Part shown: piece by piece, positions 38,819 to 47,566 of the stretch
How positions within the stretch are numbered: position 1 is the first letter of the stretch
Layout: each line of letters starts with the position of its first letter
Program-made: the position numbers and the translations under genes
Assembly: GCA_029268145.1 (NCBI GenBank)
Contig: JAJUHA010000001.1
Span: 1 to 64,000 of the forward strand
From: Sphingomonadaceae bacterium
Lineage (GTDB): Bacteria > Pseudomonadota > Alphaproteobacteria > Sphingomonadales > Sphingomonadaceae
Length of the DNA stretch: 64,000 nucleotides
Reading direction: 5' to 3'
The notes under the pieces: generated by a model
The model's database searches: none
What the model was told of the DNA's origin: nothing
What the model saw: the letters and a program-made list of their open reading frames with translations, nothing else

Positions 38819-38893
38819 TGGAGCGGGCGAAGGGATTCGAACCCTCGACCCCAACCTTGGCAAGGTTGTGCTCTACCCCTGAGCTACGCCCGC
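38819..38893 (-). tRNA. tRNA-Gly (GCC anticodon)
   Basis: On the minus strand, acceptor GCGGGCG starts at 38893, followed by TAGCTCAGGGGTAGAGCA (D arm), anticodon loop with GCC (CTTGCCAAG), GGTTCGAATCC T-arm and closing CGCCCGC, discriminator T and encoded CCA (38821-38819). A plain cloverleaf. It marks the right border of the photosynthesis cluster. Confidence 0.95.
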
Positions 38894-40590: not shown

Positions 40591-40791
40591 ATGACGGCGC
40601 CCGACCCCCGGCTGCTCGCGCTCCTCGTCTGCCCGATGACGCGCAGGCCGCTCCGGCTCGACCGAAGGACGGGCGCGCTGGTCGCCGAAGGTGGCCAGGC
40701 CACCTACCCGGTCGTGGCAGGCGTGCCGCATCTCCTCCCGCCGGACGCCCTCGCAGCGCCCGGCGGCAGGATCAGCCGAGCTCGCCCCTGA
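40591..40791 (+). CDS. Trm112-like (UPF0434) small protein
   Basis: A 66-residue protein beginning DPRLLALLVCPMTRRPLRL, with YPVVAGVPHLLPPDA, the pattern of the Trm112/YcaR family (small zinc-ribbon-derived scaffold). Only one Cys remains, so zinc binding is doubtful. It overlaps the 3' end of the convergent UbiH-family gene by 20 nt and lies 10 nt after the Lon-domain gene. Confidence 0.85.
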   Translation: MTAPDPRLLALLVCPMTRRPLRLDRRTGALVAEGGQATYPVVAGVPHLLPPDALAAPGGRISRARP

Positions 40792-42019
40792 GCAGCGGCG
40801 GCAGGTCTCCGGCGGTGCCGCGGGCGATGGCCGCGAAGGCCCGCTTGGCGGGCGGCGCGTGCTCGACGAGGGCGAGGCCGAAGCGGCGGAGCGCCTCGAC
40901 CGGCCGCCCGGGCAGGCCAAACAGGCGGGCGAGCGCGTCGGTCGCGAAGGCGGTCAGGCTGTTGTCGGCGCGGCGCCAGCGCTCGTAGCGGCGCGCCAGC
41001 GCGGGGTCGCCGAGGTCGAGGCCGCTGCGCGCGCCCGTGGCCAGGACCTCGGCGAGGACGGCGACATCGCGGAAGCCGAGGTTGAGCCCCTGGCCGGCGA
41101 TGGGGTGGATGCCATGGGCCGCATCACCCACCAGCACCAGCCGCTGCGCGCCGTAGCGCTCGGCATGGTGGAAGCCGAGCGGCCAGGCGACCGCGGGCGC
41201 GATCATCTCGACTGCGCCGAGCCGGCCACCCAGCCGTTTCGCCACCTCGGCGGCAAGGCCGCGCGGCCCGAGCCTTGCGGCCCCTTCCGCCGCGTCGCGC
41301 CCGACGGTCCACACCAGCGCCGACCGGTGCCGGCCATCGGCGAGGTCGCGCATGGGAAGGAGCGCGAAGGGCCCGGAAGGGTAGAAGAGCTCGAGCGCCA
41401 CCCCGTGGTGGGGCCGGGCGTGGGCCAGCATCGAGACGAGGGCAGCGGAAGGATAGGACCAGTGGGCGAGCCGGATTCCGGCTGCCTCGCGGGTGCTGCT
41501 GCGCCGGCCGTCGGCAGCGACGGCAAGCGCGGCGAAGAGGGTGCGGCCGTCGGCAAGAGTCGCGGTCACGCCGGACGGCCCGCGATCGAGCCGGGCGATG
41601 GCGACGGGCGCCACCAGGCGCACGAGCGGCGTCTGCTCGACGCGGGCGAGCAGGGCCCGCCGGAGTGCGCGGTTCTCGACCATGATGCCGAGCGGCTCGA
41701 CCGCGCCGCCGGCGTCGGCGCTCGCTGCAGCGTCGAAGCGGATGATCTCGGGATGGGAGCCCTCGGCCACCTCGATGCGCGCGATAGGACAGCCTTCCTC
41801 GTCGAGCAGGTCGCCAAGGCCGAGGGCGCGCAGCATCCGTGCGCTGGCGCTCGCGATCGCCGAGGCCCGGCCGTCGAAGCTCTCGGCGAGGTGGGCGCGC
41901 GGGTCGGCCCGCTCCACGATCAGCGCGCTGATGTCGTGGGCGGCCAGCGCCAGCGCGAGGGTCTGGCCGACAAGGCCCCCGCCGACGATGAGGATGTCCG
42001 CAGCGCTGTCACTGGTCAT
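40772..42019 (-). CDS. UbiH/UbiF-family FAD-dependent ubiquinone hydroxylase
   Basis: 415 residues: N-terminal FAD motif ILIVGGGLVGQTLALALA, DGR motif VAADGRRSSTREAAGI, and the family signature VLVGDAAHGIHPIAGQGLNLGFRD. It belongs to the UbiH/UbiF/UbiM hydroxylases of ubiquinone synthesis; which ring position is hydroxylated cannot be told. Single gene, ATG 42019, with its upstream region shared with the candidate sRNA and ftsK. Confidence 0.88.
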   Translation of the reverse strand: MTSDSAADILIVGGGLVGQTLALALAAHDISALIVERADPRAHLAESFDGRASAIASASARMLRALGLGDLLDEEGCPIARIEVAEGSHPEIIRFDAAASADAGGAVEPLGIMVENRALRRALLARVEQTPLVRLVAPVAIARLDRGPSGVTATLADGRTLFAALAVAADGRRSSTREAAGIRLAHWSYPSAALVSMLAHARPHHGVALELFYPSGPFALLPMRDLADGRHRSALVWTVGRDAAEGAARLGPRGLAAEVAKRLGGRLGAVEMIAPAVAWPLGFHHAERYGAQRLVLVGDAAHGIHPIAGQGLNLGFRDVAVLAEVLATGARSGLDLGDPALARRYERWRRADNSLTAFATDALARLFGLPGRPVEALRRFGLALVEHAPPAKRAFAAIARGTAGDLPPLLRGELG

Positions 42020-42204
42020 GGAGAACCGCCTAGCCGGGCCGGGGCGGCCGTGAAACCCCTGCACCGGGTCGCACCCGCCTGATGCCGCCCTGACCGGCGC
42101 TGCCCTGCTGCCAGATGAGGCAGTCGACAGGTCTTGCGCAGGACCCTGCCCAGAAATCGGGCAGGGGTCGGCAGGTGCCGGGGGCCCCTGCCCCTGTCCG
42201 AAGG

Positions 42205-42220
42205 TTGGCACGGTTCTTGA
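42205..42220 (+). promoter_or_regulatory. Sigma54-type promoter
   Basis: TTGGCACGGTTCTTGA at 42205-42220 matches the sigma54 consensus (TTGGCACG-N4-TTGC) except TTGA for TTGC; GG and GA are the required 10 bp apart (GG 42207-42208, GA 42219-42220). Upstream is a perfect 8-bp inverted repeat (CCCTGCCC 42144-42151 / GGGCAGGG 42159-42166), in the zone where enhancer-binding proteins bind. Expected transcript start is near 42231. Confidence 0.55.
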
Positions 42221-42230
42221 TGAAGAGGAT

Positions 42231-42310
42231 TCGGGTGCCTTCGGGCTCCTGTGCTCGCTTCGGGACTTTGGTCCTCCCTTCAGGCCCGGGCTTCGCGCCC
42301 GGGCCCTTTT
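42231..42310 (+). ncRNA. Candidate intergenic small RNA before ftsK
   Basis: The 80 bp between the sigma54-like promoter and the terminator hold no plausible ORF but show RNA-like structure: a GCC-UUCG-GGC mini-hairpin, a GGAC-UUUG-GUCC hairpin followed by single-stranded CCUCCC (anti-Shine-Dalgarno-like), and the terminal hairpin with U-tract. The layout resembles short trans-acting sRNAs of Alphaproteobacteria. No known family is recognised. Alternatives are an attenuated leader of ftsK or an unrelated chance terminator. Confidence 0.45.
42283..42310 (+). terminator. Rho-independent terminator with no upstream ORF
   Basis: GGCCCGGGC (42283-42291) pairs with GCCCGGGCC (42297-42305) around TTCGC, followed by CTTTT (42306-42310). 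A strong plus-strand intrinsic terminator. The nearest plus-strand gene upstream ends at 40791, and the intervening minus-strand gene cannot be terminated here, so it most likely ends a small transcript. Confidence 0.8.
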
Positions 42311-42386
42311 CGTGCCTGTCACCGGACAGCGACAGGAGAGGCACAAAAGGCGAACGGCTGCTTGACCTGCCGCCTGCGCGCGGGGC

Positions 42387-44762
42387 ATGGAACGGCGCAT
42401 GGCAGCGACCGCGGCCGGATTGCTCGAGGCGGCCCCGTGGCGGCGCCGCGCGGTCTCCTCGCGGGCTGACCAGGTGCGGCGGGCGGTGGCGGCATTCGCC
42501 GCGCGGCTGCGGTCGGTGGCGGTGGGCCTGCTGCTGGTCGGGCTCGCCGTGGCGCTCGGGCTCGCGCTCTGGAGCCACAATCCGGCCGATCCCTCGCTCA
42601 ATACGGCAACCGCCAGGACGGCGTCCAACCTGCTCGGGCGTCCGGGGGCCCTGGTCTCCGACCTTCTCCTCCAGCTTCTCGGCCTCGCGTCGCTGGGCCT
42701 CATCCTCGTCCTTGCCGGACAGGGCGTGCGCCGCCTGCTCGGCTGGCCGACGAGGCGGCCTCTCCCGGCGCTTGGTCTCGGCATCGGCGGGGTCCTGCTC
42801 CTTGCGGCGGGCGCCGGGCTGCTGCGCCAGGCCCCCGTCGCCGGGGCGGAGCTGACGGCGGGCGGGCTCGTCGGCCATCTGGCGCAGCGCGCGAGCCTCG
42901 CGCTGGCGCACGCAATCCCCGCCGAACCGCTGCTCGTGGCAACGGCTGGCGGGCTCGGCCTGGGGCTCGCCGGCCTCCTGCTCGCCGGCCTCGGCGGAGA
43001 CATTCGCCCGCGCCTGCCTGCCAGATCCGCCTGGCTTCGCCGCGGCGCGCGCGCGCCGGCGGCGGAGGCCGTGGCAGCCGGGCCGGATCTTCCCGAAGAC
43101 CCCGTGGCGCGGCGCGCGCCCGTGGTGCCTGCCGAGCCGTCGCCGGCGCCGATGGTGGTGCGGCCGCGCGCGGCCGGCCCCTCGCAGCGGGCCGAACGCG
43201 AGCGCCAGCCGAGCCTGATGCTTGGCGACCGGGCGCTCCTCCCCCCGCTCTCGCTGCTCAAGCCCCCGCCGCCCGTGACCGGCAGCGTCGACGAGGCGGC
43301 GCTCACCCAGAATGCGCGCCTGCTGGAGGCGGTCCTCGAGGATTTCGGCGTGCGCGGCGCCATCGTCGGGATCTCGCAGGGGCCGGTCGTGACCCTCTAC
43401 GAGCTCGAGCCGGCGCCGGGCATCAAGGCCAGCCGCGTCATCGGGCTTGCCGACGACATCGCCCGGTCGATGAGCGCGGTCTCCGCGCGGGTGGCGGTCA
43501 TCCCCGGCCGCAACGTCATCGGGATCGAGCTTCCCAACCGGCGGCGCGAGATGGTGGTGCTGTCCGAGCTGATCGCCAGCGACGCGTTCGAGCATGGCCG
43601 CGGGTCGCTTCCGCTGGTTCTCGGCAAGGACATCGCGGGCTCGCCGGTCATCGCCGATCTCGCGCCCATGCCCCACCTGCTGATCGCCGGCACCACCGGC
43701 TCGGGCAAGTCGGTCGGGCTCAATGCGATGATCCTCTCGCTCCTCTACCGGCTGCGGCCCGAGGACTGCCGGCTCATCCTCATCGACCCGAAGATGCTCG
43801 AGCTTTCGGTCTATGACGGCATCCCGCACCTGCTCGCGCCGGTCGTCACCGAACCGGCCAAGGCGATCCGGGCGCTCAAGTGGGCGGTCGAGCAGATGGA
43901 GGACCGCTATCGCAACATGACCCACATCGGCGCGCGCGGGCATGCCGCCTACAACGAGCGGGTGCGCGAGGCGATCCGCAAGGGCGAGAGCTTCACGCGG
44001 CGCGTCCAGACCGGCTTCGATGCCGAAGGGAATCCCGAGTATGAGGAAGTGACGCTGCGGCTGGAGCCGCTGCCGCTCATCGTCATCGTGGTCGACGAGA
44101 TGGCCGACCTCATGATGACGGCGGGCAAGGAGGTCGAGTTCCTCATCCAGCGGCTCGCCCAGAAGGCACGCGCGGCCGGCATCCACCTCATCATGGCGAC
44201 GCAGCGCCCTTCCGTCGACGTGATCACCGGGGTCATCAAGGCCAATCTGCCGACGCGGATCAGCTTCCAGGTGACGTCGAAGATCGACAGCCGCACCATC
44301 CTCGGCGAGCAGGGGGCCGAGCAGCTGCTGGGCAAGGGCGACATGCTGTACATGCCGGGTTCGAACCGCATCGTCAGGGTCCATGGCCCGTTCGTCTCCG
44401 ACGAGGAGGTGGAGGCGGTGGCCCGCCACTGGCGGGCGCAGGGCACGCCCGACTATGTCGACAGCGTGACCGAGGAGCCCGATGGCCCCGACGGCTTCGA
44501 GGACATGCCGCGGGCGGTGGCCGGCGGCGGCCGCCAGGGAGCGATGGCCGTTGCCGGAGACGGCGATCTGCTCTCGCAGGCCATCCAGGTGGTCGCGGTG
44601 TCGCGCAAGGCGACCATCTCCTATCTCCAGCGCACGCTGCGCGTGGGCTACAATTCGGCGGCCCGGCTCATCGAACAGATGGAACAGATGGGCCTTGTCT
44701 CAGCGCCGGATCATGTCGGCCGCCGCGAAGTGCTGATGGACGAGGCCGGCAACCGGATCTGA
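42387..44762 (+). CDS. ftsK: DNA translocase FtsK
   Basis: 791-residue septal DNA pump coupling chromosome segregation to division. Four N-terminal membrane helices (about 45-200), a short Pro/Ala linker (about 215-300), then the motor: Walker [18 protein letters not shown], Walker [43 protein letters not shown], and the C-terminal gamma winged helix [30 protein letters not shown] 42387 or 42399. Standard alphaproteobacterial form with a short linker. Confidence 0.96.
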
Positions 44763-47476: not shown

Positions 47477-47566
47477 GGAGAGGTGGCAGAGTGGTCGAAT
47501 GCGGCGGTCTCGAAAACCGTTATGGGTGCACGCCCATCGAGGGTTCGAATCCCTCCCTCTCCGCCA
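47477..47566 (+). tRNA. tRNA-Ser (CGA anticodon)
   Basis: Acceptor GGAGAGG (47477-47483), D arm GGCAGAGTGGTCGAATGC, anticodon loop TCTCGAAAA with CGA, a long variable arm (TTATGGGTGCACGCCCATCG), T arm GGTTCGAATCC, closing CCTCTCC, discriminator G and encoded CCA (47564-47566). Class II tRNA of 90 nt. Confidence 0.96.

Follow-up and report, generated by a model that had tools for sequence, protein, structure and literature searches.

A gene for a small RNA (sRNA) of about 80 nucleotides (nt) very probably lies at positions 42231-42310 of a 64,000-nucleotide stretch of DNA from a Sphingomonadaceae bacterium (contig JAJUHA010000001.1 of assembly GCA_029268145.1, positions 1 to 64,000 of the forward strand; hereafter the window), in the gap between a ubiH-family gene and ftsK. 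Overall, the locus is best explained, and is likely to be correctly described, as a stand-alone sRNA gene of the NtrC regulon; the gene is uncatalogued, probably NtrC-dependent and found in one clade so far. The anatomy of the gene, its conservation and the presence of one common box upstream of this gene, glnK-amtB and a second P-II gene are established by sequence comparison. The gene occupies 42144-42310 on the plus strand and comprises an NtrC-type box, a sigma54 -24/-12 promoter, the RNA and an intrinsic terminator, as follows, with the two neighbouring genes listed last.

42144-42166, no strand assigned: perfect inverted repeat CCCTGCCC-N7-GGGCAGGG, which holds the NtrC-type box TGCCCAGAAATCGGGCA (42147-42163).
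42205-42221, plus strand: sigma54 -24/-12 promoter TTGGCACG-GTTC-TTGAT, at a fixed distance to the RNA core in the strong homologs.
42231-42310, plus strand: predicted sRNA, about 80 nt (78.2 bits with covariance model R1, of which this copy is a part).
42232-42251, plus strand: hairpin 1, which has a UUCG loop and whose stem contains a U-U mismatch (pairing in 96.9% of cells, no double-sided change).
42247-42259, plus strand: most conserved stretch, UCCUGUGCUCGCU, a candidate pairing site (identical in 14 of 14 close homologs, partly by selection).
42262-42275, plus strand: hairpin 2, with a UUUG loop (91.4% of cells paired).
42273-42278, plus strand: CCUCCC, which shares bases with the 3' arm of hairpin 2 (6 of the 14 homologs have it intact).
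42283-42310, plus strand: intrinsic terminator, with its stem at 42283-42305 and then C and TTTT (two stem pairs changed on both sides).
40775-42019, minus strand: ubiH-family hydroxylase gene, the divergent neighbour of the sRNA (TIGR01988, 393 bits against a cut-off of 224.65).
42387-44762, plus strand: ftsK, the downstream neighbour (Pfam FtsK_SpoIIIE, FtsK_alpha, FtsK_gamma and FtsK_4TM; start codon as in the list of open reading frames).

A first-pass annotation, made from the letters of the window, had proposed a complete sRNA gene layout with a sigma54 element, an upstream perfect inverted repeat and a strong U-tailed terminator. Every element that it named was found in the sequence: the promoter as TTGGCACG-GTTC-TTGA at 42205-42219, the repeat at 42144-42166 and the terminator, which stands above shuffles and has covariation in its stem, ending at 42310; the layout is that of a stand-alone gene with a conserved promoter and its own terminator. 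The further statement that the interval holds no open reading frame (ORF) was correct in one respect only, as plus-strand ORFs do cross the region (for example 42115-42855, 246 amino acids (aa)), but no frame is conserved through it, since the RNA core lengths of the homologs (48, 49, 51 and 52 nt) vary by 1, 3 and 4 nt. The start of the RNA (+1) was set about 12 nt past the -12 element, which we take to be the usual spacing, give or take a few nt. In the 2.5 kilobases (kb) scanned no sigma70-type site was found, and there were two overlapping terminator-like sites against a shuffle mean of 0.4 (standard deviation 0.8).

The distribution of the gene was examined by DNA search, by covariance model and by pattern. 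The DNA search covered 59 relatives, counting the own genome, and placed the sRNA locus in the own genome, in the other four members of the genus and in a single additional genome of the family; one more match (L007, genome G014) lies elsewhere and was rejected. A covariance model of the RNA core, built without promoter and terminator, was run on 397 genomes of the family, of which 69 gave matches at an expectation value (E) of 0.01; the best 13 places were kept and 17 weaker ones were inspected and rejected. All 13 best matches adjoin ubiH and 12 have ftsK in the locus too, while none of the 17 inspected weak matches has these neighbours. The promoter sequence lies outside the model. In each of the 13 strong homologs TGGCA[CT]-N5-YTG[CA] stands 24-26 nt upstream of the RNA core, and none of the 17 weak matches has it within 60 nt of the core. 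Nine of the 13 promoters have a TTGA-like -12 element, which makes the TTGA of the window usual for this locus. In the genome TGGCACGNNNNYTGMW was counted 23 times and the reversed pattern 3 times.

A pattern scan of the genome_contigs collection gave 16 matches, 12 of them adjoining ubiH, with ftsK seen in 10 of these; the other two loci end within 0.5 kb downstream. The remaining four (L070, L074, L078 and L079), which have no ubiH or ftsK match, were judged to be chance matches. The 12 loci are labelled as coming from groups of the Sphingomonadales or, in one case, from an alphaproteobacterium, and the three genera checked are Sphingosinicellaceae; named isolates with the locus are Thermaurantiacus tibetensis, Sandaracinobacteroides hominis, S. 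sayramensis, Sandaracinobacter neustonicus and Glacieibacterium frigidum. Eleven of the 12 had already been found and one (L085) was new, which gives 14 close homologs. When 396 genomes sampled from the order were searched at E 1e-4, no further true locus appeared; four of the eight matches (L053, L067, L117 and L118) were rejected as lying away from the sRNA locus. Diverged copies were sought by position in 30 ubiH loci of relatives, and a sigma54 promoter was present in the ubiH gap of nine: six known loci and the new L155, L156 and L167. In these three the order of parts is unchanged (hairpin, linker, second hairpin, terminator) and the sequence is altered; UUGCUCGCUC is retained in two of them. 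The homologs upstream of a ubiH-family gene are thus 14 close ones, own copy included, and three diverged ones. The promoter is missing in seven other loci with ftsK in reach (L154, L157, L160-L163 and L166). On a tree of 37 UbiH proteins, 16 of them from carriers, used as a stand-in for the species tree (L052 of genome G099 was left out, its UbiH being cut in the locus), the carrier state needs 2 changes against 12.2 in shuffles, which fits one gain and one loss. L154 (G024) is the only non-carrier within the carrier clade; its ubiH-ftsK gap has no sigma54 promoter, so that the gene seems to have been lost there.

Among the 14 close homologs, mean pairwise identity is 0.877 over RNA positions 1-35, 0.79 in the promoter and 1.0 in UCCUGUGCUCGCU, against 0.34 from -11 to +1 and, in an ungapped comparison at fixed distance, 0.27-0.30, the chance level, further up and down.

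The nitrogen regulator NtrC is suggested by the inverted repeat. TGCCC-N7-GGGCA occurs at nine places in the genome against four for the reversed control; one is the repeat of the sRNA, and another is found 112 base pairs (bp) upstream of a sigma54 promoter that serves a P-II gene followed by an ammonium transporter gene (here named glnK-amtB). In 13 carriers the sequence before glnK and before a second P-II gene, presumably glnB, was read, and 24 of the 25 loci were used for training (L109, a fragment, was left out). All 24 have a sigma54 promoter, and TGCC-N9-GGCA reaches full score in 16 of them against 0.17% of 1200 shuffles. With a matrix built from the 24 glnK/glnB sites, without any sRNA site, the box of the sRNA scores 20.8 bits, a value reached in none of 200 shuffles. 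When 21 of the 23 sigma54 promoters found in the genome were scored (the other two had no locus), three exceeded 6 bits, namely those of the second P-II gene (21.2), the sRNA (20.8) and glnK-amtB (18.6), the next being 5.7; the scores of the two P-II boxes are partly circular, as both are in the training set. Among the close homologs, the box beats 200 of 200 shuffles in 11 of 14 and is beaten by one of 200 in L048 and in L052; it scores 16.2 and 16.7 bits in the diverged L155 and L156, and paired boxes of at least 10 bits each, 40 +/- 1 bp apart, are present in 9 of the 14. The genome has one NtrC gene, above the curated cut-off, and P-II genes are established NtrC targets in other bacteria. 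NtrC-sigma54 control of the sRNA can thus be proposed with considerable confidence, NtrC binding being read from the shared promoters. Since the repeat matches the boxes of the glnK-amtB and second P-II promoters, the signal would be nitrogen limitation; of the earlier proposal of a nitrogen- or stress-responsive RNA, the nitrogen half is thereby retained, via NtrC, and the stress half dropped.

Another type of site was seen in the same set. In 9 of the 21 scored sigma54 promoters (L018, L024 with two promoters, L026, L028, L029, L030, L031 and L034, all of the own genome) the best site is a TGTCA-N7-TGACA-type palindrome, unlike the NtrC box. Several of these promoters precede ORFs with secreted-protein-like beginnings, and the genome encodes a PrsR-type PEP-CTERM activator (L009), so that the group looks like a PrsR regulon.

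The predicted fold of the interval 42225-42315 has an energy of -45.8 kcal/mol (z -2.96), which 2 of 200 shuffles attain, and the best fold depends on the ends chosen: with these ends both hairpins merge into one long stem, whereas from the predicted +1 they are separate. Across the homologs 93.9% of cells are paired in the proposed structure, more than in any of 500 shuffles, and the covariation score and the number of double-change cells stand likewise above all shuffles. The double changes sit in the terminator stem and, in an automatic fold, in one pair topping hairpin 2. The terminator thus has covariation support, and hairpins 1 and 2 rest mostly on sequence conservation. As for the part that would do the work, the exposed CCUCCC stressed in the first-pass annotation is present, but a role for it is less supported than one for UCCUGUGCUCGCU, as it is intact in 6 of the 14 homologs against 14 of 14.

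Taken together, these features suggest the following mechanism. When nitrogen is limiting, NtrC in its phosphorylated form would occupy the box, which lies some 60 bp before the -24 element, and would switch on the sigma54 RNA polymerase at the sRNA promoter; the product would be an RNA of about 80 nt that ends at its own terminator before ftsK. The predicted sRNA would act in trans, probably with Hfq, for which 15 of 16 carriers have a gene (the exception, G026, is 67% complete). Its UCCUGUGCUCGCU would pair with mRNAs, their ribosome binding sites being the most likely place, and so lower their translation. The complement of UCCUGUGCUCGCU is AGCGAGCACAGGA, and masking of ribosome binding sites is plausible because it holds the Shine-Dalgarno-like AGGA; we put Shine-Dalgarno masking, which had been raised in the earlier annotation, at somewhat short of an even chance. 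More tentatively, and with the balance against it, the RNA may be a clade-specific riboregulator that forms the repressive arm of the NtrC regulon, a fixed 13-nt sequence with complementarity to a Shine-Dalgarno-like motif silencing a set of mRNAs at nitrogen exhaustion. If so, a system of NtrC and sigma54 that otherwise acts only as an activator would also switch genes off. If the main reading is right, a route from nitrogen status to translation would be seen in a lineage for which little sRNA work was found.

Searches for target mRNAs were performed with patterns derived from this stretch. GAGCACAGGA before RTG gave five matches in 3 of 13 genomes and none in the own genome. AGCGAGCACAGGA with at most one mismatch was found at 52 places spread over 10 genomes; ten of these places are the sRNA itself, and the reversed control also gave 52, so that the number is at chance level. 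Among the 19 inspected of the 42 other places no gene start was repeated. The G-U-tolerant variant AGCGAGCGCAGGA occurs 12 times in 9 of 10 genomes, and the contexts of the five inspected differ. GCACAGGA before RTG gave 30 places in five genomes against 19 for the control; 28 of the 30 were inspected, and two sequences were each found in two genomes, one (L193 and L200) before a 26-codon frame only and the other in L187 and L194, the L194 place preceding a 79-codon frame that is open upstream.

Several observations weigh against the picture of an NtrC-dependent sRNA that pairs with mRNAs. The identity of 1.0 in UCCUGUGCUCGCU is partly built into the finding of the homologs. The UUCG and UUUG hairpins of the first-pass annotation are present in the sequence, but as two separate hairpins they are the own best fold in only 7 of the 14 homologs, the other seven folding otherwise, and two of five covariation measures lie within the shuffles (the two double-changed pairs are equalled or exceeded in 101 of 500 shuffles, the number of pair types in 463 of 500). 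The consensus used in the search for the training boxes had been suggested by the palindrome of the sRNA. L049 (G026) has RNA and promoter but no box that stands above shuffles (5.0 bits; 11 of 200 as high), and the box of the diverged L167 (G009) scores only 8.1 bits; this most diverged copy has the sigma54 promoter, hairpins and terminator together with a different palindrome, TGCACAGCCATTGTGCA. No mRNA target recurs among the places inspected with these strict patterns, wobble and interrupted pairing being outside their reach, and the starts of ftsK, ubiH, glnK, amtB (start as placed here) and the second P-II gene pair no better with the RNA than shuffles.

This want of a recurrent target would fit an RNA that is under the same sigma54-NtrC control and binds a protein, for instance as an Hfq decoy, instead of pairing with mRNAs; CrcZ is described as such a sigma54-dependent Hfq decoy (PMC8395346). 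The same source gives CrcZ as 407 nt long with several A-rich motifs, whereas the sRNA here has about 80 nt and is GC-rich, and a stretch that is conserved more in sequence than in structure would fit pairing better. A protein-binding role is therefore considered unlikely.

An activator other than NtrC might drive the same RNA gene. Six clear sigma54 activators are encoded in the genome, four of them above the curated cut-off (NtrC, NtrX, the PEP-CTERM-type PrsR and PspF), and the box was assigned through shared promoters only, so that NtrX, a PspF-like protein, PrsR or one of the two unnamed activators might act here. Against these stands the match of the box to those of glnK-amtB and the second P-II gene, NtrC targets elsewhere, and its difference from the TGTCA-type palindromes of other sigma54 promoters; control by another activator appears improbable.

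The position of ftsK, in the same direction about 80 nt past the terminator and in the locus of 12 of the 13 strong homologs, might indicate that the transcript is the 5' leader of ftsK, made from the sigma54 promoter and subject to a conditional terminator, through which nitrogen status would set ftsK expression. This reading is disfavoured by L051 (G065), where promoter, RNA and terminator are all retained although the 1.5 kb that follow contain no ftsK match; the terminator, moreover, is conserved with covariation. In L051 two ORFs stand where ftsK is expected, one of 89 aa and one with a PIN domain (56 bits with Pfam PIN), and the two look like a toxin-antitoxin pair. We consider an ftsK leader quite unlikely. 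Hardly credible is a reading in which no functional RNA is made and the interval is a conserved DNA element or holds an unrelated terminator, for although no transcript has been seen, conservation sets in sharply near the predicted +1 (0.34 from -11 to +1, 0.88 in the RNA) and the promoter keeps a fixed distance.

The stand-alone sRNA gene was lastly compared with known families and with the literature. It has no match in Rfam at the gathering score, and relaxed settings gave nothing near threshold. Two tRNA genes, at 38822-38893 (minus strand) and 47477-47563 (plus strand), are the sole Rfam matches at gathering score in the window. The alignment of the SorX model (RF02784) covers CUCCCU and the sRNA's UUCG terminator, but membership was ruled out at 25.8 bits against a gathering score of 46.6, and among 12 homolog loci, at E up to 1, this model matches only L043 (24.7 bits). 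The suhB/mmgR family (RF00519) has a hairpin, an unpaired pyrimidine-rich stretch and a terminator in the same order as the sRNA; membership was likewise ruled out (18.6 bits against 41), and only L041 of the 12 loci matches (23.7 bits).

In the literature, sigma54 motifs have been reported before 112 start sites in Sinorhizobium meliloti (PMC3616915), sRNAs of nitrogen starvation have been studied in Azospirillum (PMC7685610), and NcS25, an sRNA with a target linked to nitrogen metabolism, is described as having no such promoter and as unresponsive to nitrogen depletion (PMC10117139), as far as the parts consulted of these sources go. The words Sphingo, sRNA, small RNA and non-coding are absent from the main text of a sigma54 regulon survey (PMC12316311), and no sphingomonad paper on such an RNA was found by title in the open-access literature. 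The gene described here would thus be the first NtrC-regulon sRNA known to us in the Sphingomonadales, within the open-access literature, surveyed mostly by titles.

In its predicted control, the sRNA resembles NrsZ and GlnZ, to judge by their published descriptions. NrsZ of Pseudomonas aeruginosa has its own sigma54 promoter, as here, and is made in nitrogen limitation by NtrB/C and RpoN (PMC8395346); according to that account it is about 226 nt long, processed, located at ntrC-PA5126 and activates rhlA translation, whereas the present RNA has about 80 nt and lies between ubiH and ftsK. GlnZ of the Enterobacteriaceae, as portrayed in PMC9731577, is an Hfq-linked sRNA of the NtrC regulon with a conserved pairing sequence that represses sucA; its control would be alike, in another lineage and with another sequence.
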